From Clostridia bacterium (GTDB lineage: Bacteria; Bacillota; Clostridia; Peptostreptococcales; Acidaminobacteraceae): DNA of 64,000 nt. This document shows positions 52,830-63,549 of the stretch, one piece after another. Under the pieces are notes generated by a model. It searched no databases and was not told the DNA's origin. It worked only from the letters and a program-made list of their open reading frames with translations. The position numbers and the translations under genes were made by a program. Numbering within the stretch: the first letter of the stretch is position 1; the number at the start of each line of letters is the position of its first letter. Location of the stretch: the NCBI GenBank assembly GCA_018399635.1, contig JAGYOH010000003.1, positions 62,001 to 126,000 of the forward strand, given 5' to 3'.

Positions 52830-53657
52830 TCAATCCAGGATACTGCGCTGCCTGAAATCGTTGATGGTGATTTCCATCAACCAGGCCGTGAGAAAAATCA
52901 TGAAGACCCCGAAGCCCTGGGTGGCGTAATCCCCTCCCCGTGCGGCATTGTTGATGGCGCTGCCGATGGTCCCCGGGACTCCGGCTGCCGGCCCGATGAC
53001 CACCGCCACCCCGAAATTGATTTCATTCCTGATGGCGATCCAGGAAATCATCTTGGTCATGGAGGAGGGCAGGACGGCTCCGAAGACGATCTGCAGCCAG
53101 TTGGAGCCCGTGGCCTTCAAGGCCTCGATGGTTCCCGTATCCACCTCCTCGAAGGACTCGGCAAAGGCCTTGGTGAAGAAGGCGAAGGTGTGGAAGAACA
53201 TGCCCACCACCGCCGTGGTGGCGCTGAGGCCGTAGCCGGCGACAAAAATCAGGACCCAGATGATGGTGGGGACGGCTCTCACAAAGGAGGAAATCCCCCG
53301 GATCAGATCAGTCAGCCACCCTGAGGAGAGGTTTCTGGCGGCCAGGAGACCGAAAACCAGGCCGAAGACCACCCCCAGAATGGTGGTGACGAAGCCCAGG
53401 GCCAGGGTGTTGAGCAGACTCATGAACATCTCGAGTCTTTTCTCCCCGGGGACGAGATCGAATCTGAAGAAGTTGCTGGCGATCCGACTGGCGACCTCGA
53501 AACTGAACTGGTCCCACTTGTATTCCAGCCGGAAAAAAAGGGCATAGAAGGTCACCAGCAGAAAGAGAGTGACCAGGAGGCCGATGGCCCGGTCCGTGGC
53601 ATTGTAGACCCTCAGCCGGGGACGGCCGAGGATGGTGCGCTTGATGGTTTCAATCAT
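52830..53657 (-). CDS. phnE: Phosphonate ABC transporter permease (second)
   Basis: A 275-residue permease with about six helices. Landmarks: VTTILGVVFGLVFGLLAARN, SFVRAVPTIIWVLIFVAGYGL, and the EAA-type loop STIEALKATGSNWLQIVFGAVLPS (here VDTGTIEALKATG). It overlaps the first permease by 4 bp. Two PhnE-type subunits together form the channel in many Gram-positive phosphonate importers. AGGCTATT precedes the ATG. Confidence 0.92.
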   Translation of the reverse strand: MIETIKRTILGRPRLRVYNATDRAIGLLVTLFLLVTFYALFFRLEYKWDQFSFEVASRIASNFFRFDLVPGEKRLEMFMSLLNTLALGFVTTILGVVFGLVFGLLAARNLSSGWLTDLIRGISSFVRAVPTIIWVLIFVAGYGLSATTAVVGMFFHTFAFFTKAFAESFEEVDTGTIEALKATGSNWLQIVFGAVLPSSMTKMISWIAIRNEINFGVAVVIGPAAGVPGTIGSAINNAARGGDYATQGFGVFMIFLTAWLMEITINDFRQRSILD

Positions 53658-54469
53658 AATAGCCTCTTTCTGATCTGAATCGACAGCTGGTCGAAGGCGG
53701 TGATGGTGATCACCACCAGGATGACCGCCGCCGTCAATTCATCGAATCTTCTGAAGTGCTTGTAGATGCCGATGAGGTGTCCGATGCCGCCGCCGGCCAG
53801 GATACCGATGATGGTGGCGCTGCGGATGTTGGTTTCGATGGCATACAGGGTCCAGGAAATGGCCACGGGCAGGGTTTCGGGAAACACCGACTGGAAGATG
53901 ATCTGCCAGTAGGTCGCCCCGGTGGCTTCCAGGGCTTCGATGCTGCCGTGGTTGGTCTCGTCGATCATGTCGGAAAAGAGACGGGCGTTGAAGCCGAAGG
54001 TCCCGATGCTCATGACCAGGAGGGCCAGAAATTCACCGAACCAGAAGGCCATGAGGAGGACGATGGCCCAGATGGCCGCCGGAACATTCCTCAGAAAGGT
54101 GGCGACGACCCTCAAAAGGACCTTGACCAGGGGGATGCGGCCGGTCCGCTTGGACATGCCGATGGCCGTGGCATAGGCCAGGGCGGACCCGATGGTCCCC
54201 GCCGCCACCGACAATGCGATGGTGACCCAGATGCCTTCAAAAAGATCCTGATAGTTGGCAAAGTTGGGTGGGAAGTATAGCCCGACAAAGCGGTCCAAGG
54301 CACTGAAAAGTCTAATGAAAATCAGCCAGAAATCGAATTCGATCAGTCGGCTGCTCAGCAGATAGAGGACTCCGAAGGCTCCCAGGACCAGGGCGTTGCG
54401 GCCTCGTTTTTCATTGAAAATCCCCTGGGGGTTGTCCCGGGGCAGGGTGTTGTCATGCCAGAATTTCAT
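53654..54469 (-). CDS. phnE: Phosphonate ABC transporter permease (first)
   Basis: A 271-residue permease of the PhnE family, different from its neighbour in the N-terminal half. Landmarks: TIALSVAAGTIGSALAYATAIGMS, FLRNVPAAIWAIVLLMAFWFG, and the ATPase-contact loop HGSIEALEATGATYWQIIFQS. ATG 54469 has GGAG 9 nt upstream and is preferred over ATG 54484. It overlaps phnC by 17 bp. Confidence 0.92.
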   Translation of the reverse strand: MKFWHDNTLPRDNPQGIFNEKRGRNALVLGAFGVLYLLSSRLIEFDFWLIFIRLFSALDRFVGLYFPPNFANYQDLFEGIWVTIALSVAAGTIGSALAYATAIGMSKRTGRIPLVKVLLRVVATFLRNVPAAIWAIVLLMAFWFGEFLALLVMSIGTFGFNARLFSDMIDETNHGSIEALEATGATYWQIIFQSVFPETLPVAISWTLYAIETNIRSATIIGILAGGGIGHLIGIYKHFRRFDELTAAVILVVITITAFDQLSIQIRKRLL

Positions 54470-55223
54470 CGATTTTCGCTCCATAGATCAATTCGATCAC
54501 TTCATTGGTGAGGGCCTCCGGGGGTCCGTTGAAGACGATTTCCCCCTGACTCATTCCGATGATCCGGTCCGAGTATTTGATGGCCACATCCACCTGGTGC
54601 AGGTTCACCAGACAGGGAATCTGCATGGACCGGCTGATGTCCTTGAGGTATTCCATGATCACCTTGGACGCCTGGGGATCCAGGGAGGCGATGGGTTCAT
54701 CCGAGAGAATCATCTTGGGGTCCTGGATCAGGGCCCTGGCGATTCCCACCCGCTGCTTCTGTCCCCCGGAAAGATTGTTGCACCTGAAAAACTTGCGGTC
54801 CTCAAGACCCAGAAGATCCAGAATCTCCATGGCCCTCAGGATATCTTCCTTGGAGTAGAGGGAAAGGGCTCCTTTGAGGGTGGAGTAGTAGCCCAGTCTC
54901 CCGTGGAGCACGTTTTCCAGGGCCGTGAGCCGGTAGACCAGATTGTAGTGCTGGAAGACCATGCCGATCTGTTTTCGAACCTGTCTGAGGTCTTTTTTTC
55001 CCATCCCGACGATTTCTTTTTCATCGAAGACGATGCTGCTCCCTTGATCCGGCAATATCATCTGATTGATGCATCGGAAAAGAGTTGATTTCCCGGCCCC
55101 GCTCGGACCGATGACGGAAACCAACTCACCTTCTGATACATCAAAGGAAACCTTCTCAAGAGCCTTCGTTTTGCCTTCATAGGTTTTGGATAGATTCTGA
55201 ATACTGAGTATCACCTTTGACAT
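54453..55223 (-). CDS. phnC: Phosphonate ABC transporter ATP-binding protein
   Basis: A 256-residue ABC ATPase. Walker A is GPSGAGKST, Q-loop in GMVFQHYNLVYRLTALENVL, signature LSGGQKQRVGIARAL, Walker B MILSDEPIASLD, switch His in LVNLHQVDVAIKYSDR. The FQHYNLV and NLHQVD segments are typical of PhnC. ATG 55223 follows GGAGG; a longer frame to 55361 overlaps phnD and is noise. Confidence 0.95.
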   Translation of the reverse strand: MSKVILSIQNLSKTYEGKTKALEKVSFDVSEGELVSVIGPSGAGKSTLFRCINQMILPDQGSSIVFDEKEIVGMGKKDLRQVRKQIGMVFQHYNLVYRLTALENVLHGRLGYYSTLKGALSLYSKEDILRAMEILDLLGLEDRKFFRCNNLSGGQKQRVGIARALIQDPKMILSDEPIASLDPQASKVIMEYLKDISRSMQIPCLVNLHQVDVAIKYSDRIIGMSQGEIVFNGPPEALTNEVIELIYGAKIDEILA

Positions 55224-55257
55224 ACGAAACCTCCATGATTTCTCTGCTGCCGGAGAA

Positions 55258-56214
55258 TTACTCTCCGGCGTACATGACTTCCAAAAACTCGTAGTAGGAG
55301 GGATCCACGGCCACGAAGCGGTCGGTGAGATCCAGGACTGAAGCGTCGGAATCCGAACCACCCTCCATAAAGAGTCCTTCCACGGCGTTTTCAGGGGTAA
55401 GGTTCACGAAATGGTTCACGATGGCGTCGATGTGCTCCTGGGGCATGAATTCCTTGTTGACCCAGAAGGGACCGTTGGGCACCAGGGTCTGGGCGATGAT
55501 GAAGAGCTCGTCCCACCGCTCGTCTCCGTAGGCGCAGCAGAAGGCGCCGGCATAGACCTTCTTGTTGGCGATGAGCTCCACGGATCCGGGATGGTTGCCG
55601 CCGAACTGGATTTCCTCAAAGAGGCCTCCCTCGGCCTTGGTGAGTTCGAAGACCTGGTTGCGGTCCTGGATGAGTCCCGATCCATCGGGTCCGAAGGCGT
55701 TGTAGAGGGTGGTGGTGGGGACCAGTCGGCCCGAAGTCGAAGTCGCAGAAACGAAGGAGAAGGATCTACCCTCCAGAGACAGGATCATCTCCTCGGGAGT
55801 CATGCCGTCAAAATCGGATTTGTTGTCGACATGGGTGGCGATGTAGGCGGGATAGCCCGCAATGGACTTGTCTCCCAGAGGTGCCTGGATGAATAGGGGG
55901 ATGACATTGGGGTTCTCGAGATGCGCCTTGGTATAGGTGGCGCCTGAGGGGGTTCCGATATGGGCGGTTCCTGAGAGAATGGACTCTGAAACCACGGAGT
56001 AGTCGTCCGCCGCCACGTATTTCACTGTGGCATTGAAGGGCTCAAGGGCCTTGTTCATCTCCTCGATCACATAGCCCGAATAGTCCGTCATTTCTCCACC
56101 GTCATTGGGGAGAGAGGCGAAGATGTATTCGACGCTTTCCTCTTTGGCCTGACAACCTGTAACAATCACCAGCAGAAGCAACAACAATACCGAAAGTCCC
56201 AGATACTTTTTCAT
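55258..56214 (-). CDS. phnD: Phosphonate-binding lipoprotein
   Basis: About 318 residues. Signal MKKYLGLSVLLLLLLVIVTGC with lipobox Cys 21. The mature domain has the PhnD pattern: MNKALEPFNATVKYVAADDYSVV, GTAHIGTPSGATYTKAH, FSFVSATSTSGRLVPTTTLYN (with the Ser/Thr-rich loop that binds the phosphonate group), and VPNGPFWVNKEF. GGAGGAA stands 5 nt before ATG 56214. It lies between phnL and phnC, so uptake and cleavage genes are in one transcript. Confidence 0.92.
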   Translation of the reverse strand: MKKYLGLSVLLLLLLVIVTGCQAKEESVEYIFASLPNDGGEMTDYSGYVIEEMNKALEPFNATVKYVAADDYSVVSESILSGTAHIGTPSGATYTKAHLENPNVIPLFIQAPLGDKSIAGYPAYIATHVDNKSDFDGMTPEEMILSLEGRSFSFVSATSTSGRLVPTTTLYNAFGPDGSGLIQDRNQVFELTKAEGGLFEEIQFGGNHPGSVELIANKKVYAGAFCCAYGDERWDELFIIAQTLVPNGPFWVNKEFMPQEHIDAIVNHFVNLTPENAVEGLFMEGGSDSDASVLDLTDRFVAVDPSYYEFLEVMYAGE

Positions 56215-56241
56215 GATTCTTCCTCCTTGATTTTTCAAAGT

Positions 56242-56952
56242 TTAGATAAATCCGCCTTGATCCATGTTGAACTGCTTATCGACAAGCCCCTCCATGAACT
56301 CCAGATCATGGAAGATGCCCAGCATGGTAGTGCCATCGGCCTTGAGCTTCTCGATCAGTTCCCGGACCTTCTCCTTGTTGTGCTCGTCAAGGGAAGCCGT
56401 GGGCTCGTCGAGGAGCAGGAGCCTGGGTTTTTTGATCATGGCCGCCGCCACATTGAGTCTGAGCTTCTCTCCGCCGGAAAAATTCTGGGGATAGACGTCC
56501 CAGAGGGCTTCATCGAGTTCAAAATGACTGAGCATGGCGGCGGTTTCCCCTTCGGCGACCGCTCTGGAATGACCCATTTCAAGAACCGCCTTCTCCACGA
56601 TTTCCTTGGCCGTGGTCCTGGGCATGGTCCTCAGGAACTGGGAGACATAACCGATTTCATACTGTCTGAGATAGATGATCTCCTGCTCGCCGGCCTTGAA
56701 AAGATCGATCTCTCCAAAGGCTTCCGAGTCGTAGAGAATTTCTCCTTTTTGGGGCAGGTAGGTGCGGTAGATGCTTTTGAGGATCGTCGATTTGCCGGAA
56801 CCGCTTTTTCCGGTAATCCCCACGAATTCACCATGGTCGACGGTGAAACTGATGTCCTCGCATCCCCTGATTTTCCGGTCCAGGTGGTGCAGGGTGAATT
56901 CCTTCGACAGGTTGCGAATCACCAGCAGACTCTTCTCCGTGGTCATGGTCAT
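56242..56952 (-). CDS. phnL: C-P lyase system ATPase PhnL
   Basis: A 236-residue ABC-type ATPase. Walker A GKSGSGKST, Q-loop region IGYVSQFLRTMPRTTAKEIVE, signature FSGGEKLRLNVAAAM, Walker B LLLLDEPTASLD, His in GIFHDLEFM. VSQFLRxxPR is a PhnL hallmark. PhnL is required for the formation of ribosyl triphosphonates with PhnGHI. It overlaps the hexapeptide transferase gene by 4 bp. Confidence 0.94.
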   Translation of the reverse strand: MTMTTEKSLLVIRNLSKEFTLHHLDRKIRGCEDISFTVDHGEFVGITGKSGSGKSTILKSIYRTYLPQKGEILYDSEAFGEIDLFKAGEQEIIYLRQYEIGYVSQFLRTMPRTTAKEIVEKAVLEMGHSRAVAEGETAAMLSHFELDEALWDVYPQNFSGGEKLRLNVAAAMIKKPRLLLLDEPTASLDEHNKEKVRELIEKLKADGTTMLGIFHDLEFMEGLVDKQFNMDQGGFI

Positions 56953-57575
56953 TCGACCACCTCCCCTTTTGAGTGTCTCTTGATGAAGACCTCGACCTCC
57001 TCTCTGAAATCCAGGAGATGGGCTTTGATTTTATCGTCCGGCCAATCCCACCAGGCGATGGCTTCAAGACTCCGGACGGTGTCTTCAGGGAAGCGGTAGC
57101 GCAGGATCTTTGCGGGATTGCCCGCCACAATGGCATAGGGAGGCACATCCTTGGTCACCACGGCGCCCTGGCCCACCACGGCTCCGTTGCCCACGGCGAT
57201 TCCCGGCTTGATCATGGCCCCGTGGCCGATCCAGGTATCGTGACCGATGGTGGTGATCCGGGATTCCCGGTGATTGAAAAATTCCTGGTCGTCCTCTCCG
57301 AAGCCGTACATGGCACTGCGATAGGTAAAATGATGCAGGGTGGCCCGGTCCATGGGATGGTCCGTGGCCCCTACCCTGACTGAGGCGGCTATGTTGGAAA
57401 ATTTGCCGATGGTGGCATTCTGAAAGGTACAATAGCCGCCGCAGTAGGAATAGTGATCGAAGGTGGTGTTTTGAAGGGTGCTGTACCCTCCGATTTCACA
57501 CCAGTTTCCGTAGCTTGAGTTGTTGAGTCTGGCGCCTTCATGGACGAGGCCCTCCAGGGTCAGTGATTTTTTCAT
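56949..57575 (-). CDS. Phn-linked hexapeptide-repeat transferase
   Basis: A 208-residue left-handed beta-helix protein with many hexapeptide repeats (IGGYSTLQNTTFDHYSYCGG, IGKFSNIAASVRVGA, IGHDTWIGHGAMIKPGI, VGNGAVVGQGAVVTKDV) and the usual end PPYAIVAGNPAKILRYRF. Length and the HPMDRATLHHFTYRSAMYGFG loop match the phosphonate-metabolism transferase family found in C-P lyase operons. The acceptor is unknown; a role like the aminoalkylphosphonate acetyltransferase PhnO is possible. It lies between phnM and phnL. Confidence 0.88.
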   Translation of the reverse strand: MKKSLTLEGLVHEGARLNNSSYGNWCEIGGYSTLQNTTFDHYSYCGGYCTFQNATIGKFSNIAASVRVGATDHPMDRATLHHFTYRSAMYGFGEDDQEFFNHRESRITTIGHDTWIGHGAMIKPGIAVGNGAVVGQGAVVTKDVPPYAIVAGNPAKILRYRFPEDTVRSLEAIAWWDWPDDKIKAHLLDFREEVEVFIKRHSKGEVVE

Positions 57576-57587
57576 CCGGCTTTCCTC

Positions 57588-58772
57588 CTAAACCCGGTAA
57601 TGGGTTTGAAATACTTCCTCGCCGTCCACGAGGCAGGTGGTGATGACGGGGAAATCCCCGTCGATCATTTCGATGATGTTCAAGTCCGCCAGCTTGCCCT
57701 TTTCAATGGAGCCGATTTCTTCATCCACCTTGACCGCCCTGGCGGGATTGAGGGTGACCAGCTTGAACATTTCTGCAAGATCGTGGCCGTAATCCCGATG
57801 GAGCTTGAAGACCGAGTGGAGAATCGCGGCAGGATAGTAGTCGCTGCACAGAATATCCACCACTCCGGCGGCCACGGCCTCGTGGGCGGAAAGATTGCCG
57901 GAATGGGATCCTCCCAGAAGGACATTGGGGGCCCCCGCCACGGTGTGAAGATTCATCTCCTTGGCTTTTTTCGCCACGGCCATGGTGATGGGAAATTCGG
58001 AGATGGTGGCTCCGATTTCCTTGATCCGGTGGAGCTTTTCAATGGAATCGTCGTCATGGGAGGCGATGGCGATGCCCTTCTCCATGGCATAGGCGGCGAT
58101 CCGCTGGCACTCCTCGGGCCTGAGTTTGGGAGTGGACAGGCGCTTTTCAATATGGGCGTCGAGTTCCTCGTCGCTCATCTTGAGCCCGTACTGCCGGGTC
58201 ATTTTCCTGTAGCCCTCGAGGTCCGAGAACTGACCCTGACCCGGGGTGTGGTCCATGAAGCTCAGCAGATCCACCCGGTCCTCCTGGATGAAGCCGATGA
58301 GTTCCTCCACGCTGTCGACATTATCGATCTCAAACCGGGCGTGGAAGCGGTGGCGGATCAGGTGTTTCTTGTGGTGGGTCCCGGCGATGAGGTCGATGAA
58401 CTTTCTCACGTTTTCCTGACGACGGATGGGCTTGTCATCGGTCTGCTTGATCTTGTAAAGACTCAGGGAATGATACATGGTGGTGACTCCGTGGGTGAGC
58501 AGCTCCCTCTCCGCCTCTCTCAGGGCCAGTTTGAAGTCCATGAGACTCGAGGGTCGGGGGGCGGCGATATGCTCGATGTAATCGGCGTGGATATCGATGA
58601 AACCCGGGGACACATAGCCCCCTCTGGCATCGATGATTCTCAGGTCCAGGCCCAGGGCCTCCCCTTCTCCAGCCTTGACGATATCCTTGATCCGGCTGCC
58701 GTCGATGATGAGATCATAACCCTCCACGATCCCCTCCGGCAGCACCAGTTTTCCGTTGATGATGGCTTTCAT
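57588..58772 (-). CDS. phnM: Alpha-D-ribose 1-methylphosphonate 5-triphosphate diphosphatase
   Basis: A 394-residue amidohydrolase-fold enzyme that removes pyrophosphate from ribosyl triphosphonate. Seen: the N-terminal strand domain IINGKLVLPEGIVEGYDLIIDG, the metal site GYVSPGFIDIHADYIEHIAAPRP, HGVTTMYHSLSL, IASHDDDSIEKL, and the C-terminal VTLNPARAVKVDEEIGSIEKGKLADLNI. The PhnM-specific HADYIEH motif replaces the HxH of common amidohydrolases. It begins 14 bp after phnK. Confidence 0.95.
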   Translation of the reverse strand: MKAIINGKLVLPEGIVEGYDLIIDGSRIKDIVKAGEGEALGLDLRIIDARGGYVSPGFIDIHADYIEHIAAPRPSSLMDFKLALREAERELLTHGVTTMYHSLSLYKIKQTDDKPIRRQENVRKFIDLIAGTHHKKHLIRHRFHARFEIDNVDSVEELIGFIQEDRVDLLSFMDHTPGQGQFSDLEGYRKMTRQYGLKMSDEELDAHIEKRLSTPKLRPEECQRIAAYAMEKGIAIASHDDDSIEKLHRIKEIGATISEFPITMAVAKKAKEMNLHTVAGAPNVLLGGSHSGNLSAHEAVAAGVVDILCSDYYPAAILHSVFKLHRDYGHDLAEMFKLVTLNPARAVKVDEEIGSIEKGKLADLNIIEMIDGDFPVITTCLVDGEEVFQTHYRV

Positions 58773-58786
58773 GGCAAGCTCCTTCT

Positions 58787-59632
58787 TTAAAGTAATGACT
58801 GCACGAGTTTCTGGGTGTAGGGGTGCTGGGGATCCTCGAGAATCTGATCCGTAAGACCGGTTTCAATGACGCGGCCGTCCAGCATCACCAGGGTGCGGTC
58901 CGCCAGCATCCGGATGACGCCGAGATCGTGGGAGACGATGACCATGCTGATGCCGAGGTCCCGCTGGATCTCCTTGATGAGGTCCAGGACATTGGCCTGG
59001 ACTGAAAGATCCAGGCCCGTGGTGACCTCGTCCAGAAAGAGGACCGGGGGATTGTTGGAGAGGGCCTTGGCGATCTGGACCCGTTGCTGCATCCCTCCGG
59101 AAAAATTCTCCGGTGCGTCCTTTCTCCGGTAGTCCTCGATGGTGACCACGTCGAGGAGGTCATGGGCCCTTTGGGTCATGGTCCCCACATGGCGACCTCC
59201 GGCGGCGATGAGCTTTTCCGCGACATTGGAGAGGGCCGAAAATTTCATTTTGAGACCAAGAAAGGGATTCTGATACACCATGCCCAGGAGATAATCCCTG
59301 AGGTAGCGCTTTTGCTGGGAGGAAACCTTCAGAATATCCGCCCTTCCCTCCCCGTAATCGTTGAGAAAGGCCTCTCCCGCACTGGCTTCCTGATCGAAAT
59401 AGAGGGTTCTTACCAGGGTGGATTTGCCGCTGCCGCTCTCACCCACGATGCCGAGAATCTCCCCCCGGTAGAGGTCGAAGGACACCTCCCGGGTGGCATA
59501 GATGGTCTGGCAGTGGGGACAGTAGTTTCGAATCAGAACCTCGGGATTTTTTCGGCATTTTTCACAGCCTTCCCCGAACTGTTTGGTCAGATTTTTGACC
59601 ACCAGGACCTTTTCCTGAGTCACTTCAGGCAT
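58787..59632 (-). CDS. phnK: C-P lyase system ATPase PhnK with extra Cys cluster
   Basis: About 281 residues. ABC motifs: GESGSGKST, MVYQNPFLGLKMKFSALSNVAE, FSGGMQQRVQIAKAL, LFLDEVTTGLD, VSHDLGVIRML. The C-terminal DPQHPYTQKLVQSLL is typical of PhnK. Between the first strand and the Walker A there is an insertion with GCEKCRKNPE and YCPHCQT, four Cys spaced like a zinc ribbon, absent from E. coli PhnK. ATG 59632 has GGGAGG 8 nt upstream and is preferred over GTG 59641. It overlaps phnJ by 8 bp. Confidence 0.94.
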   Translation of the reverse strand: MPEVTQEKVLVVKNLTKQFGEGCEKCRKNPEVLIRNYCPHCQTIYATREVSFDLYRGEILGIVGESGSGKSTLVRTLYFDQEASAGEAFLNDYGEGRADILKVSSQQKRYLRDYLLGMVYQNPFLGLKMKFSALSNVAEKLIAAGGRHVGTMTQRAHDLLDVVTIEDYRRKDAPENFSGGMQQRVQIAKALSNNPPVLFLDEVTTGLDLSVQANVLDLIKEIQRDLGISMVIVSHDLGVIRMLADRTLVMLDGRVIETGLTDQILEDPQHPYTQKLVQSLL

Positions 59633-60476
59633 TGTCCCCACCTCCCTGATTCAGACGCTTCAGACAGTAACTGCTGTCATTGCACTGATAATAGACCTCA
59701 TGGGTCAGCTCGTCTTCAAGTTCATCAAAGAAAACATCCGTCGCCCCGCAGAGGTGACACACCCTTCCCTCCTGGTTTTCCACTTCAAAGGGATAGTCGT
59801 CAAAGGCCAGGGAAACCACCTTGGTGTAGGGGGGAATGGCGTAGATTTTCTTCTCCCGGCCGGCTCCGAAGAGTTGGATTCCTTCGGAATGGTCCAGTCT
59901 GGGATTGTCGTATTTGGGAATGGGGCTCGGAGACATCACGTACCGGTCGTGGACGTAGACGGGATGGGCCGCCCCACCGGTCATTTTCCCGAATTTCATG
60001 ATTTTTTCAAAAAGCACCAGCCAGGCGCCGCTGTACTCCCCGTCGCCGTGGAGCCGCTTGGTCTTGTATTCACTGGATTCAACAAATCTCAGGGGCTCCG
60101 GCATGGGCACCTGCAGGACGATGATCTGCTCCTCCCTGAGGGGCTCCTCGGGAATCCGGTGCCGGGACTGGACCACTGTGGCCTTGCCGGTGTCAATGGT
60201 GCTGTCGACGCCCGTGGTCTTTTGAATCAGATTTTTGATGCTGACGGCGTTCACCGACTCATCCGTCCCCTGGTCGATGACCTTGATGACATCCCCCTGG
60301 TTGATCAGGGACAGGGTGACCTGCAGGCCCCCGGTTCCCCAACCCCGGGCGATGGGCATTTCTCTTGAAGCAAAGGGAACCTGATAGCCGGGAATCGCCA
60401 CGGCCTTCAAGGTCGCCCTTCTGATTTCTTTTTTGGATCCTTCATCGAAGAAGGCGAAATTATAGGCGTTTTTCAC
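59625..60476 (-). CDS. phnJ: C-P lyase catalytic subunit (alpha-D-ribose 1-methylphosphonate 5-phosphate C-P lyase)
   Basis: A 283-residue radical-SAM-like enzyme that breaks the carbon-phosphorus bond. The four conserved Cys are C240, C243, C265 and C271 (CHLC...CNDSSYC), one residue offset from E. coli C241, C244, C266 and C272. Other landmarks are NFAFFDEGSKKEIRRA, VAIPGYQVPFASREMP, RGWGTGGLQVTLS, RHRIPEEPL and VQVPMPEPLRFVE-like text. All essential residues look intact, so the system should be active. It overlaps phnI by 4 bp. Confidence 0.97.
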   Translation of the reverse strand: MKNAYNFAFFDEGSKKEIRRATLKAVAIPGYQVPFASREMPIARGWGTGGLQVTLSLINQGDVIKVIDQGTDESVNAVSIKNLIQKTTGVDSTIDTGKATVVQSRHRIPEEPLREEQIIVLQVPMPEPLRFVESSEYKTKRLHGDGEYSGAWLVLFEKIMKFGKMTGGAAHPVYVHDRYVMSPSPIPKYDNPRLDHSEGIQLFGAGREKKIYAIPPYTKVVSLAFDDYPFEVENQEGRVCHLCGATDVFFDELEDELTHEVYYQCNDSSYCLKRLNQGGGDNA

Positions 60477-61585
60477 TGGGTCTCTCCCCCTTTCTTCGTC
60501 TTTCTCACGCTGTCGAGTTTGGATTGGAAGGTGACGTAATGGGGCAGTTTCAGGTGGGAGATGAAGCCCGTGGCCTCTACGGAATCCACGTGGTAGAGGA
60601 CGAATTCCTCATCATGGGTGGGGGCTTCTCCGGGTTCCTCAAGACATCGGTCCAGAATGCTCATGGCGATGGCCTTGGTTTCATTCTGTCCGTAGCAGAT
60701 GCCGTAACCCAGGTCGAGTTCCTCCTCGTAGTCCCCCGAGGGGGTCTTGACCGCCCTGGGAATGATGGATTCCACTTCGGTGACCCGGATGCTGCCGATA
60801 TAGTAGGCTTCCTCTTCGCCGGTCTCCTCCGAGAAGGGCGGATCGATGGTGATGGGGAGTTCCCCCACTCTCAATTCCCCCACCGTGGGATGCACCGACC
60901 CGTAGCCCCTGAGGGAGGCATAGCCCAGAGCCGTCACGGCGCCGGTCTGTCCCCGGGTCAGGATCTGAAGGCGCTGACTCCGTTTCGAGGGGAATTTCAA
61001 GGCTTCCTTGGTCACGTCCTCGGGCTCTGTCTCATCGGCCTCGTAGGTGGCCATGAGCCCCTCTCTTCTCAGATAGTCCATGACCTTGGGGTATTTCAGA
61101 GGGGTCTCCCACACTTCATTCTCTTCAATTTCCTTCAGGTAGGCCTTGAGCCACCGCTTGGGGATGAAGGGATCCGCTTCCTCTCTTTTGAGGTCAAAGT
61201 CGATCAGTCGATGGGAATAGTCCGGAGAGGCCCCCAGGATCTGCCCTCCTGGAATGTCCTTGAAACTGGCGGAAATCCTTCGAGTGAGGGCCATTTCATG
61301 ACTTTCCACGGTTCTGGAATAATATTTCCGGGGCAGGGTGGATCTGAAGGCCCTGAGGAGAAAGACCACCTCTTCGGGATTCCCCTGGGCCTGCTTGATG
61401 GCCAGGGCGGCCAGGGCCTCATCATAGAGGGAGGCCTCGCTCATCACCTGGTCGATGAGTCCCTGCAGACCGGATTCAATGGCCCGGGTCTCGATGGTCC
61501 GACCCTTTTTCAGTCGTTCGTATTCCAGTCGCTTGAGGGATTCCCCAATGGCTTCCTGTCCTCCCTTGACGGCTACATAGGCCAT
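60473..61585 (-). CDS. phnI: C-P lyase core subunit PhnI
   Basis: A 370-residue subunit that, with PhnG, PhnH and PhnL, attaches phosphonate to the ribose of ATP. Landmarks: MAYVAVKGGQEAIGESLKRL at the N-terminus, LMATYE, TRGQTGAVTALGYASLRGYG, HPTVGELRVGELPI, DLGYGICYGQNETKAIAMSI, and VDSVEATGFISHLKLPHYVTFQSKLD. Length matches the family. It overlaps phnH by 13 bp and phnJ by 4 bp. Confidence 0.97.
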   Translation of the reverse strand: MAYVAVKGGQEAIGESLKRLEYERLKKGRTIETRAIESGLQGLIDQVMSEASLYDEALAALAIKQAQGNPEEVVFLLRAFRSTLPRKYYSRTVESHEMALTRRISASFKDIPGGQILGASPDYSHRLIDFDLKREEADPFIPKRWLKAYLKEIEENEVWETPLKYPKVMDYLRREGLMATYEADETEPEDVTKEALKFPSKRSQRLQILTRGQTGAVTALGYASLRGYGSVHPTVGELRVGELPITIDPPFSEETGEEEAYYIGSIRVTEVESIIPRAVKTPSGDYEEELDLGYGICYGQNETKAIAMSILDRCLEEPGEAPTHDEEFVLYHVDSVEATGFISHLKLPHYVTFQSKLDSVRKTKKGGETQ

Positions 61586-62178
61586 GATGAAGACCTCCTT
61601 TTGATCTGTGTCGTCCTGGGCAGGGCCAGGATTTCACCGGCGGCATCCACGAAAACCATGTCGATTCCCAGGGGATACTCCCGGTTGATTCCTTCTCTCA
61701 GACCCATGAGGTCTTCCTGGCCTTCAAGACTGACCAGGGCATTGTCCTTGATTCCCGGTCCTCTGAGCACCAGGTCATTCCCGTGTCCGAAGTGTTTGAG
61801 GGCGATGAGGAAAGTGGCCGAGTCATGGGGATCCACCAGGGTCCCCACCTTGCTCTTCTTCAAGGCCTCTTCTTTTTCCTCCGCCGTGGCCTCCTCCAGG
61901 ATGATGATGAAATCGGCGGTCTCCAGGTCCGCCGGCCTGCCGTAGGTGAGCCGGCTGATGAGCCTGGCGGCCTCCTGGGCCCCCCTTCCAACCACCTTGA
62001 AACCGACTTCCCCGTCGATCAGGGTCTGGACCAGGAGCATCATCCCCTTGCAAAAGGGCAGGTCGAAGGCGTATTCAAGGGCGTCGACGGCCAGATCATA
62101 CCTTCTGCCGGGATAGTTGCTGGCCAGGAGCAGTTTGCGGTAGGCCCTGGCGGTTGCATGAACTGAAGATTGCATCAA
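61573..62178 (-). CDS. phnH: C-P lyase core subunit PhnH
   Basis: A 201-residue subunit of the C-P lyase core. Landmarks: HATARAYRKLLLASNYPGR at the N-terminus, LIDGEVGFKVVG, ADFIIILEEATAEE, GTLVDPHDSATFLI and LRGPGIKDNALVS, then GIDMVFVDAAGEILALPRTTQI. This is the usual PhnH layout, a PLP-enzyme-like fold without cofactor. It overlaps phnG by 4 bp. Confidence 0.95.
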   Translation of the reverse strand: MMQSSVHATARAYRKLLLASNYPGRRYDLAVDALEYAFDLPFCKGMMLLVQTLIDGEVGFKVVGRGAQEAARLISRLTYGRPADLETADFIIILEEATAEEKEEALKKSKVGTLVDPHDSATFLIALKHFGHGNDLVLRGPGIKDNALVSLEGQEDLMGLREGINREYPLGIDMVFVDAAGEILALPRTTQIKRRSSSWPM

Positions 62179-62609
62179 GCCTTCACCTCCTCATCCAGGG
62201 TTTCGAAGTCGACCTTGGTTTTCAGAATCTGCTGTCTTTCCCTGCCGAGGGCCGTCTGGATCCTGACCCCCTCCTCTTTGATCCGTTCTGCCAATTCCTG
62301 GCTCTCTTCAATGACGGCGTTGAAGGCGGCGTCGATGACGGCGAGGTAGTAGGCCCGTTTCTTATGGGAACCTCTCAGGATGCCCAGACCCAGGGTATCT
62401 CCGAGGAGGACCTTGCACTCCGTCACCAGGACCTCCCCCAGGTAAAATTTGCTTTTCATGGCGGTTTCCCGCATTTTGACCATCACCAGGCCGCTGTTGG
62501 GCTCCTCGAGAACCTTGACGGCATGGTGGTTTTCCACCTGCTCGGACAGTTCTCTGAGTAGCTTCGTGGGACTTTGGGCCAGGATTTCGGTTCTGTGTCT
62601 TCGCTTCAT
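62175..62609 (-). CDS. phnG: C-P lyase core subunit PhnG
   Basis: A 144-residue subunit, first gene of the C-P lyase operon. Landmarks: RRHRTEILAQSPTKLLREL, PNSGLVMVKMRETAMKSKFYLGEVLVTEC, and GILRGSHKKRAYYLAVIDAAFN, which match PhnG. Ribosome site AAAGGGGAAATG stands close to ATG 62609. The 141-bp upstream gap has a PHO-box-like repeat, a -10 hexamer and a palindrome. Confidence 0.95.
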   Translation of the reverse strand: MKRRHRTEILAQSPTKLLRELSEQVENHHAVKVLEEPNSGLVMVKMRETAMKSKFYLGEVLVTECKVLLGDTLGLGILRGSHKKRAYYLAVIDAAFNAVIEESQELAERIKEEGVRIQTALGRERQQILKTKVDFETLDEEVKA

Positions 62610-62642: not shown

Positions 62643-62685
62643 ATTGTATCTTGGCGCCAAGTGAGAATTATTAAGAACGTGTTAG
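62643..62685 (-). promoter_or_regulatory. PHO-box-like repeat and promoter of the phn operon
   Basis: On the minus strand CTAACA (62685-62680), 5 bp, TTAATA (62674-62669), 20 bp, then -10 TACAAT (62648-62643). The 11-bp repeat period and spacing fit PhoP~P-activated promoters of Bacillus type. Within the 20-bp gap lies a perfect palindrome CTTGGCGCCAAG (62650-62661 region), a possible second operator, for example for the GntR regulator. Confidence 0.6.
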
Positions 62686-62742
62686 GTTTTGGCGTATTTT
62701 TGATTAAATCCTCGTCACAAAAAGAAATTCCAAATAAAAAAA

Positions 62743-62758
62743 AGCCCCCTTCAGGGCT
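62743..62758 (-). terminator. Terminator of the GntR gene
   Basis: On the minus strand AGCCC (62758-62754) and GGGCT (62747-62743) form a short stem followed by eight T; the gene's TGA stop lies in the loop. It separates the regulator from the phn operon. Confidence 0.65.
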
Positions 62759-63452
62759 GGATCTGCTGGACGAAACGGTCGCCTCGAAAAATCACCTCGC
62801 CGTAGCCGATGGTGGTCCGGTCCGCCTCCTTGATGAAAAAGGTCTCCATCTTCATGACGGGCACCAGGCTGGGACACTTCAGGAGCGTCTGTTCTTTCAG
62901 ATTGGGCAGCCGGGTGACCATTTCAAGGGTGCTGATGGTGGCCGCGCATTGCTTGGACTCGAGGTATTCGGTGATGGACTGGATATAGGGACCTTCCTGG
63001 GCGATCAGGGGAAAATCCCGGTCCGTCAGATAGGTGATGTGGGCGGCCACCGGCTCTGACTCCACCAGGCGAAGACGGGTGATCCGGTAGACCCGGTCCT
63101 TGGGTGCCAGGTCGAGGGCCGCGGCCACCCGGCTGAAGGGGGAGACCTCCATGAAGTCGATATTCCGAGTGGCATGGTCGAGACTGAGGGCCTCCATTTC
63201 ACTTTGAAAACTCTTCCCCCACTTGGCGGGGGTCTTGATTTTCTGCTTTTGAACCTTCAGCCACCGCCCCTTGCCCTGTTCCGTCTTGATATAGCCCATC
63301 TCGCTCAGGCGCTCGTAGACCTTCCGGATACAGTGCCGGGTGACCTGATATTTCTGGGAGAGCATGTTCTCGCTGGGAAGGGGTTCCTGGGGCTTGAACC
63401 CCCCTTTTTCAATGCGCTGGACCAGTTCATCGAGAATTGTCAGATAGGTCAT
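62751..63452 (-). CDS. phnF: GntR-family regulator, PhnF-like (HutC/UTRA type)
   Basis: A 233-residue regulator. The N-terminal winged helix (about residues 5-72) has KGGFKPQEPLPSENMLSQKYQVTRHCIRKVYERL as a landmark and GYIKTEQGKGRWL as its wing. The C-terminal UTRA domain (about 90-230) has RVYRITRLRLVESEPVAAHITYL and ITEYLESKQCA. Directly upstream of the C-P lyase operon on the same strand, it matches PhnF in place and type. It has its own PHO-box-like promoter and terminator. Confidence 0.87.
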   Translation of the reverse strand: MTYLTILDELVQRIEKGGFKPQEPLPSENMLSQKYQVTRHCIRKVYERLSEMGYIKTEQGKGRWLKVQKQKIKTPAKWGKSFQSEMEALSLDHATRNIDFMEVSPFSRVAAALDLAPKDRVYRITRLRLVESEPVAAHITYLTDRDFPLIAQEGPYIQSITEYLESKQCAATISTLEMVTRLPNLKEQTLLKCPSLVPVMKMETFFIKEADRTTIGYGEVIFRGDRFVQQIQP

Positions 63453-63495
63453 GGAACCACCTTTTCAAAGATTAGAAGTTTCAGTCTTCATTCTT

Positions 63496-63549
63496 ATAAT
63501 AAGCCCTCCCGCTGCCCTTAGGGTTAAAACAAGGTTAAAGCTCTGTTAG
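63496..63549 (-). promoter_or_regulatory. PHO-box-like repeats and promoter of the phnF-like gene
   Basis: On the minus strand CTAACA (63549-63544), 5 bp, TTAACC (63538-63533), 5 bp, TTAACC (63527-63522), 20 bp, then -10 TATTAT (63501-63496). Three hexamers in exact 11-bp register match the TTAACA-type PHO box, with the same 20-bp gap to the -10 as in front of phnG. Confidence 0.65.

Follow-up and report, generated by a model that had tools for sequence, protein, structure and literature searches.

In Bacillus subtilis, PhoP is described as acting at PHO boxes, which are TT(A/T/C)ACA direct repeats with a spacer of 5 ± 2 bp (PMC3036859). The phn operon of Escherichia coli is described as having a single promoter, upstream of phnC, that carries a PhoB PHO box, while the phnDCE genes of Mycobacterium smegmatis are described as upregulated under phosphate limitation and as repressed by PhnF at two sites of a bidirectional promoter (PMC7866108). 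Bacillus-type PHO boxes, PHO control of the E. coli phn genes, and control of mycobacterial phnDCE by both phosphate limitation and PhnF are already known. According to a 2023 review, no transcriptional control of C-P lyase other than Pho regulation is known (PMC10574752). For regulators of the GntR/HutC type, the operator consensus is given as NyGTMTAKACNy, and exceptions are listed within the subfamily (PMC4494728).

The locus described here lies at the end of the 64-kb window, that is, of the whole stretch of DNA that was analyzed. It resembles the B. subtilis PhoP system in the box hexamer, in the N5 spacing, and in the genes predicted to be controlled (pst and phoPR), but the boxes are partly CTAACA or TTAACC, their targets would include a C-P lyase operon together with the gene for its regulator, and a palindrome is added at the operon promoter. 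As in E. coli, C-P lyase genes appear to be placed under a phosphate two-component system; unlike in E. coli, where there is one promoter and phnF lies within the operon, phnF here has a PHO promoter of its own, and it is the operon promoter that carries the palindrome. A GntR/UTRA PhnF-type protein at a phosphate-limitation promoter would be the same kind of double control as that of M. smegmatis phnDCE; phnDCE, however, is a phosphate transporter without C-P lyase. By sequence, the regulator belongs to the same family as NagR/YvoA and other GntR/HutC repressors (structures 2wv0, 4u0v, and 4wwc), which likewise have short palindromic operators, but the operator proposed here is ACTTGGCNNCAAGW and not their consensus. 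Judging from the sequence data presented below, we consider it likely that both phn promoters are activated by PhoP~P and that the palindrome at phnG is the site of a PhnF-like repressor, which would put the operon under the joint control of phosphate and an effector.

Organization of the phnF and phn genes

The window closes with a set of minus-strand genes in the order chromate-transporter-like gene, phnF-like gene, terminator-like hairpin, and phn operon. The phnF-like gene (62751..63452, minus strand) encodes a protein of 233 amino acids in which a GntR helix-turn-helix domain (PF00392) and a UTRA domain (PF07702) both score above their cut-offs, as is typical of the GntR/HutC group. Its scores fall below the NCBIfam equivalog cut-offs for PhnF (84.8 versus 156.8 bits for TIGR02325 and 48.7 versus 363 bits for PRK10079), and the protein is therefore called PhnF-like. 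Reading of the sequence at the 3' end of phnF gave a hairpin with a T-run (62736..62759, minus strand) that resembles an intrinsic terminator, so phnG probably has a promoter of its own. The phnG gene (62175..62609, minus strand; TIGR03293, 125.9 bits against a cut-off of 89) leads the C-P lyase operon, which by profile matches and gene order covers 52830..62609 on the minus strand, the downstream end being approximate. It begins with phnG, phnH, phnI, phnJ, phnK, phnM, and a gene for a hexapeptide transferase, followed by an ABC ATPase (phnL-like), a phnD-like gene, a further ABC ATPase (phnC-like), and two permeases (phnE-like); the labels phnL, phnC, and phnE are putative and come from domain content and gene order.

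PHO boxes before phnF and phnG

Upstream of phnF, three PHO boxes, CTAACA-N5-TTAACC-N5-TTAACC (63522..63549, minus strand), stand in an 11-bp register, and 20 bp separate the last of them from a predicted −10 hexamer, TATTAT (63496..63501, minus strand). Upstream of phnG, two boxes, CTAACA-N5-TTAATA (62669..62685, minus strand), stand in the same register and again end 20 bp before a predicted −10 hexamer, TACAAT (62643..62648, minus strand), which abuts the palindrome discussed below. A weak distal box, TTAATC (62702..62707, minus strand), can be read in register two 11-bp steps upstream of the CTAACA of phnG, and the step between the two holds no box match. Both promoters have direct repeats of the TT(A/T/C)ACA type with spacers within 5 ± 2 bp, the boxes being partly off-consensus. 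The coordinates confirm an earlier note on this DNA, which had described, at both genes, CTAACA and TTAA-type hexamers that keep an 11-bp register and stop 20 bp short of a −10 hexamer.

The same note had argued that a geometry shared by two promoters would be hard to obtain by chance, and the counts agree. The pattern YTAACN6TTAAY has three matches in the window, all of them within the phnF and phnG promoters. The expectation, taken from 100 dinucleotide shuffles, is 0.09, and one of the shuffles reached three matches. With YTAACMN5TTAAYM, there are three matches without a mismatch in the window, and five with at most one mismatch against 0.78 expected. By alignment, the one same-genus genome that was compared (G001; 80% identity across the region) keeps the boxes of both phn promoters. 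At its phnF, these are CTTACA-N5-TTAACC-N5-TTAACC with TATCAT as the −10 hexamer, and at its phnG, they are ATAACA-N5-TTAATA with an identical TACAAT, the distal TTAATC being kept as well.

A near-palindrome across the −10 of phnF, CTTATTATAAG, was considered as a second operator and dropped, as it is not conserved in G001. The pairing of PHO promoters at phnF and phnG is perhaps not confined to this genus. The phnF genes of Maledivibacter halophilus (L061 1726-1790) and of genome G040 (L028 ~1415-1445) also appear to have PHO boxes of their own.

The same geometry at pstS and phoP

The genome as a whole (2.36 Mb in 36 contigs) was searched with the exact pattern YTWACMN5YTAAYMN20TANNNT, which was tuned once the sites were known. 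It has five matches, before phnF, phnG, pstS, phoP, and one gene that lacks a Pfam match. Six third-order Markov genomes simulated at the same size gave no match. With one mismatch allowed, there are 9 genome matches versus 9 for the reversed-pattern control, and a similar pattern with up to two mismatches gave 17 versus 25. Because the looser patterns do not rise above their reversed controls, the genome-level claim is based on the exact matches and on the genes that they precede. A three-box pattern with one mismatch gave seven matches versus one in the control; those at phnF and pstS are phosphate related, and no phosphate link was recognized for the other five. The earlier note had proposed such a scan as a check on whether pst, phoU, and phosphatase genes are hit. 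There was a hit at pstS, and the response-regulator gene was matched as well; the genome scan gave no phosphatase gene, with the exception of one weak site before a gene without a Pfam match. Since phoU sits within the pst operon, it has no separate promoter to test.

The site before the gene without a Pfam match (G000:C12:88047-88089; L008 1501-1543) has the exact geometry and precedes a gene for a 203-amino-acid protein with no Pfam match at 1e-5; it is possibly a further regulon member and possibly a chance match. A near match before an ABC permease gene (L005) was rejected because it is located in a terminator-like hairpin.

A phoP-phoR-pstS-pstC-pstA-pstB-phoU cluster occupies one contig stretch of the same genome (L059 236-7384), which thus encodes a pst-linked pair of a PhoP/PhoB-type regulator and a PhoR-type kinase. 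The response regulator scores below the PhoB cut-off (251.3 versus 296.2 bits) and the kinase below the PnpS/PhoR cut-offs (392.6 versus 400 bits for PnpS), so the names phoP and phoR are taken from the neighborhood. The pstS promoter of this genome has four boxes, TTAACC, TTAACA, TTTACA, and CTAACA, followed by N20 and TATACT, and the same element stands before both pst and phoPR.

Among 19 pstS-type loci from 16 genomes, its own included, a scan found boxes with a −10 hexamer at N19-20 in 12. Four further loci (G017, G019, G018, and G009) gave a poor last box when fitted at N20; in alignment A1, the last box of these pstS promoters (L120, L124, L125, and L126) is N9 from the −10, so that a good last box lies exactly one 11-bp turn closer than N20. 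Of the other three loci, L132 matches in part, and L135 and L136 are paralogs. At 6 of 30 phoP-like loci, two full boxes are followed by TANNNT at a distance of 20 or 21 bp.

Ten pstS promoters with N20, all from other genomes and one of them from the same-genus G001, served to build a model, R1; it took 10 of the 14 rows of A1, and L120, L124, L125, and L126 were dropped for their 11-bp gap in that alignment. Applied to the genome studied here, R1 gave five matches at E ≤ 10, with pstS first (E = 1.9e-7) and the phnF promoter second (E = 0.198), and at this threshold it did not reach the phnG and phoP promoters. Each of these has two boxes against four at pstS, which fits the miss, although a miss it still is. 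Together with looser patterns that are no commoner than their reversed controls, it is what one would expect if the PHO-like repeats were chance matches in AT-rich DNA. We regard that explanation as extremely improbable in view of the exact matches (five versus none in six simulated genomes, with phosphate or phosphonate genes downstream of four), the conservation in G001, and a distance from box to palindrome of 6 to 7 bp at 33 of 33 sites (see below). PhoP control of the phn promoters, for regulator and operon alike, had been suggested in the earlier note and is well supported by the recurrence of the geometry at pstS and phoP and by its conservation in G001; PhoP would presumably bind the boxes directly.

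A palindrome between the PHO boxes and the −10 of phnG

Between the phnG boxes and the −10 hexamer, the first 6 of the 20 bp are followed by a 14-bp palindrome, ACTTGGCGCCAAGA (62649..62662, minus strand), which touches the −10 and is a putative operator of the PhnF-like regulator. It is present at phnG and not at phnF, and it was overlooked in the earlier reading of these promoters, which had the boxes and the spacing right. By alignment, CACTTGGCGCCAAGATACAATGCC is identical in G001, and the palindrome is also unchanged in the locus titled delta proteobacterium ML8_F1. Within its own genome, the palindrome with its next TA was found at phnG only, and it is absent from all ten aligned pstS promoters. 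The palindrome was also considered as an RNA hairpin, a reading that was dropped on account of its position upstream of the predicted start. In many Bacilli and Clostridia, a composite element made up, in this order, of PHO boxes, 6 to 7 bp, ACTTGGCNNCAAGW, and −10 stands before phnG, phnD, or a gene linked to phn.

In a sample of 28 named loci around phnJ, mostly of Bacilli and Clostridia, 27 have phnG. In 16 of the 27, ACTTGGCNNCAAGT is found before phnG at 10 or more of its 12 letters, a level that 0 to 0.3% of shuffles reach for each locus, with a −10-like hexamer directly after it and PHO-like hexamers before it. Four Sporolactobacillus loci have ACTTATCGATAAGT at the same position instead. 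Among the remaining seven, two Paenibacillus loci (L063 and L064) have the composite element before an upstream same-strand gene, and neither composite nor palindrome was found in L065, L072 (which has no PhnF match in the locus), L082, L084 (titled Akkermansia), and L085 (titled Limnohabitans). The distance from box to palindrome was counted at 33 of 34 aligned sites, L074 being left out as near-identical to L071. Of these sites, 17 have 6 bp and the other 16 have 7 bp; shuffled flanks give 6 or 7 bp in 19%, the box placement of the script being slightly biased toward 6 bp.

A composite element before a same-strand gene upstream of phnF was seen in L063 (~580-640), L064 (~499-560), L068 (~114-180), and L070 (~213-275), which belong to Paenibacillus, Peribacillus, and Bacillus. 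A PHP domain was found in L064 and L070, and L068 and L070 have a second composite element at phnG. In L029 (G053:C6:60749-61445), a phnF match in two pieces lies beside a composite phnG promoter. The ML8_F1 locus (L060) is the closest named relative by PhnJ (93%). Its title looks like a misassignment, as its promoters and its next named relatives are of Clostridia and Bacilli.

Correspondence between PhnF-like proteins and the palindrome

Of the 27 named loci with phnG, 21 have a PhnF match before it on the same strand. Arg45 of FadR and Arg63 of AraR are reported to contact G (PMC4494728, Table 1), and the recognition-helix arginine that corresponds to them, in a helix match made by hand, is present in 18 of 22 PhnF proteins. 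It is replaced by His or Pro in exactly four, all from Sporolactobacillus, whose operator has AT in place of GG. The paired change is suggestive and not proof, since it represents one evolutionary event in one genus. If PhnF does read the palindrome, the Sporolactobacillus protein would be expected to favor ACTTATCGATAAGT over ACTTGGCGCCAAGT. We infer that the palindrome serves as operator for the PhnF-like GntR repressor encoded next to it.

PhoP might also act alone, the palindrome being bound by another protein or being a feature of promoter structure unrelated to PhnF. Two loci, L073 and L081, have the palindrome and no PhnF match in the stretch examined, and ACTTGGCNNCAAGW lacks the GT-N4-AC of the HutC consensus, both of which would suit this explanation. 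It is nonetheless unlikely, as phnF adjoins phnG in most of the loci with the palindrome, operator and recognition helix are altered together in Sporolactobacillus, and the aligned pstS promoters have no palindrome.

If PhnF does bind there, it could in principle be an activator or a dual regulator, so that phnG would need both PhoP and PhnF for RNA polymerase. The PhoP-type promoters of both phnF and the operon, by which the two would be made together, are compatible with such a role. Sites placed between activator boxes and a −10 hexamer are, however, usually repressive. The mycobacterial PhnF is likewise described as a repressor (PMC7866108), and we consider activation through the palindrome quite improbable.

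Proposed control of the phn promoters

Under repression by PhnF, the favored reading, the promoters would work as follows. At low phosphate, PhoP~P bound to the boxes would bring RNA polymerase to phoPR, pst, phnF, and phnG, with the row of boxes that ends 20 bp before the −10 serving as a substitute for a −35 element, as at pstS. The constant 20 to 21 bp at pstS, phoP, phnF, and phnG fits one common activation geometry. At phnG, the palindrome would be occupied by a dimer of the PhnF-like protein, which would shield the DNA from the boxes to the −10 and block RNA polymerase, and an effector, perhaps a phosphonate or an intermediate of the C-P lyase pathway, would free the repressor from its site. 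Transcription of the phnG operon would then call for low phosphate and the effector, and that of phnF, which lacks the palindrome, for low phosphate alone, so that repressor and target would increase together.

Distribution of the composite promoter

A blind search was made with a 16-bp pattern, ACTTGGCNNCAAGWTA, that does not include the PHO boxes. Across the 398 phylum genomes searched, it gave 15 sites in 14 genomes, against 5 for the reversed control. PhnG (PF06754) is encoded in 21 of the 398, and pattern and PhnG occur together in six (hypergeometric P = 2.3e-5). In 247 genomes of the order, there were 16 rows from 13 genomes, and the control gave two matches. Pooling of the phylum and order matches and removal of duplicates (L195, L203, and L204) left 28 distinct contexts. 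Every one of the 13 contexts with a PHO-box score of at least 8.5 precedes a phn-associated gene: phnG in nine (that of G001 by alignment), phnD or a gene for a phosphonate-binding protein in three, and a HAD hydrolase gene in one. In the 15 contexts that score 7.5 or less, no phn-associated gene was recognized downstream; the score of 0 for L202 comes from an incomplete locus. The palindrome, at 10 or more of 12 letters, lies within 330 bp upstream of only 6 of the 21 phylum phnG genes; in the other 15, phnG is not necessarily the first gene of its operon.

With somewhat less confidence than for the locus itself, we favor the view that Bacilli and Clostridia share a conserved composite promoter responsive to phosphate and phosphonate. 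At this promoter, a PhnF-like repressor would use an undescribed operator, ACTTGGCNNCAAGW, inside the fixed gap of 20 to 21 bp, leaving the PhoP geometry unaltered. We found no description of ACTTGGCNNCAAGW as an operator in the open-access papers searched, and an entry in RegPrecise is possible. If the composite reading is true, C-P lyase transcription would be under double control and would not respond just to phosphate. The analysis names a specific putative operator and a precise promoter layout, and it lists genera where dual control is testable. It also supplies a signature by which phosphonate operons and PHO promoters of Clostridia can be recognized; the C-P lyase genes of this group are a proposed source of methane in serpentinizing systems (PMC9426474).

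In genome G413, a composite element (L163 1363-1378) lies before the HAD hydrolase gene, ~1 kb upstream of phnG, and a weaker palindrome is found at phnG. The phn loci L195/L203 (G040) and L160/L165 (G446) are 99.8 to 99.9% identical over 1,653 and 2,764 bp; such near-identity between genomes assigned to different families reflects either recent transfer or mis-binned contigs.
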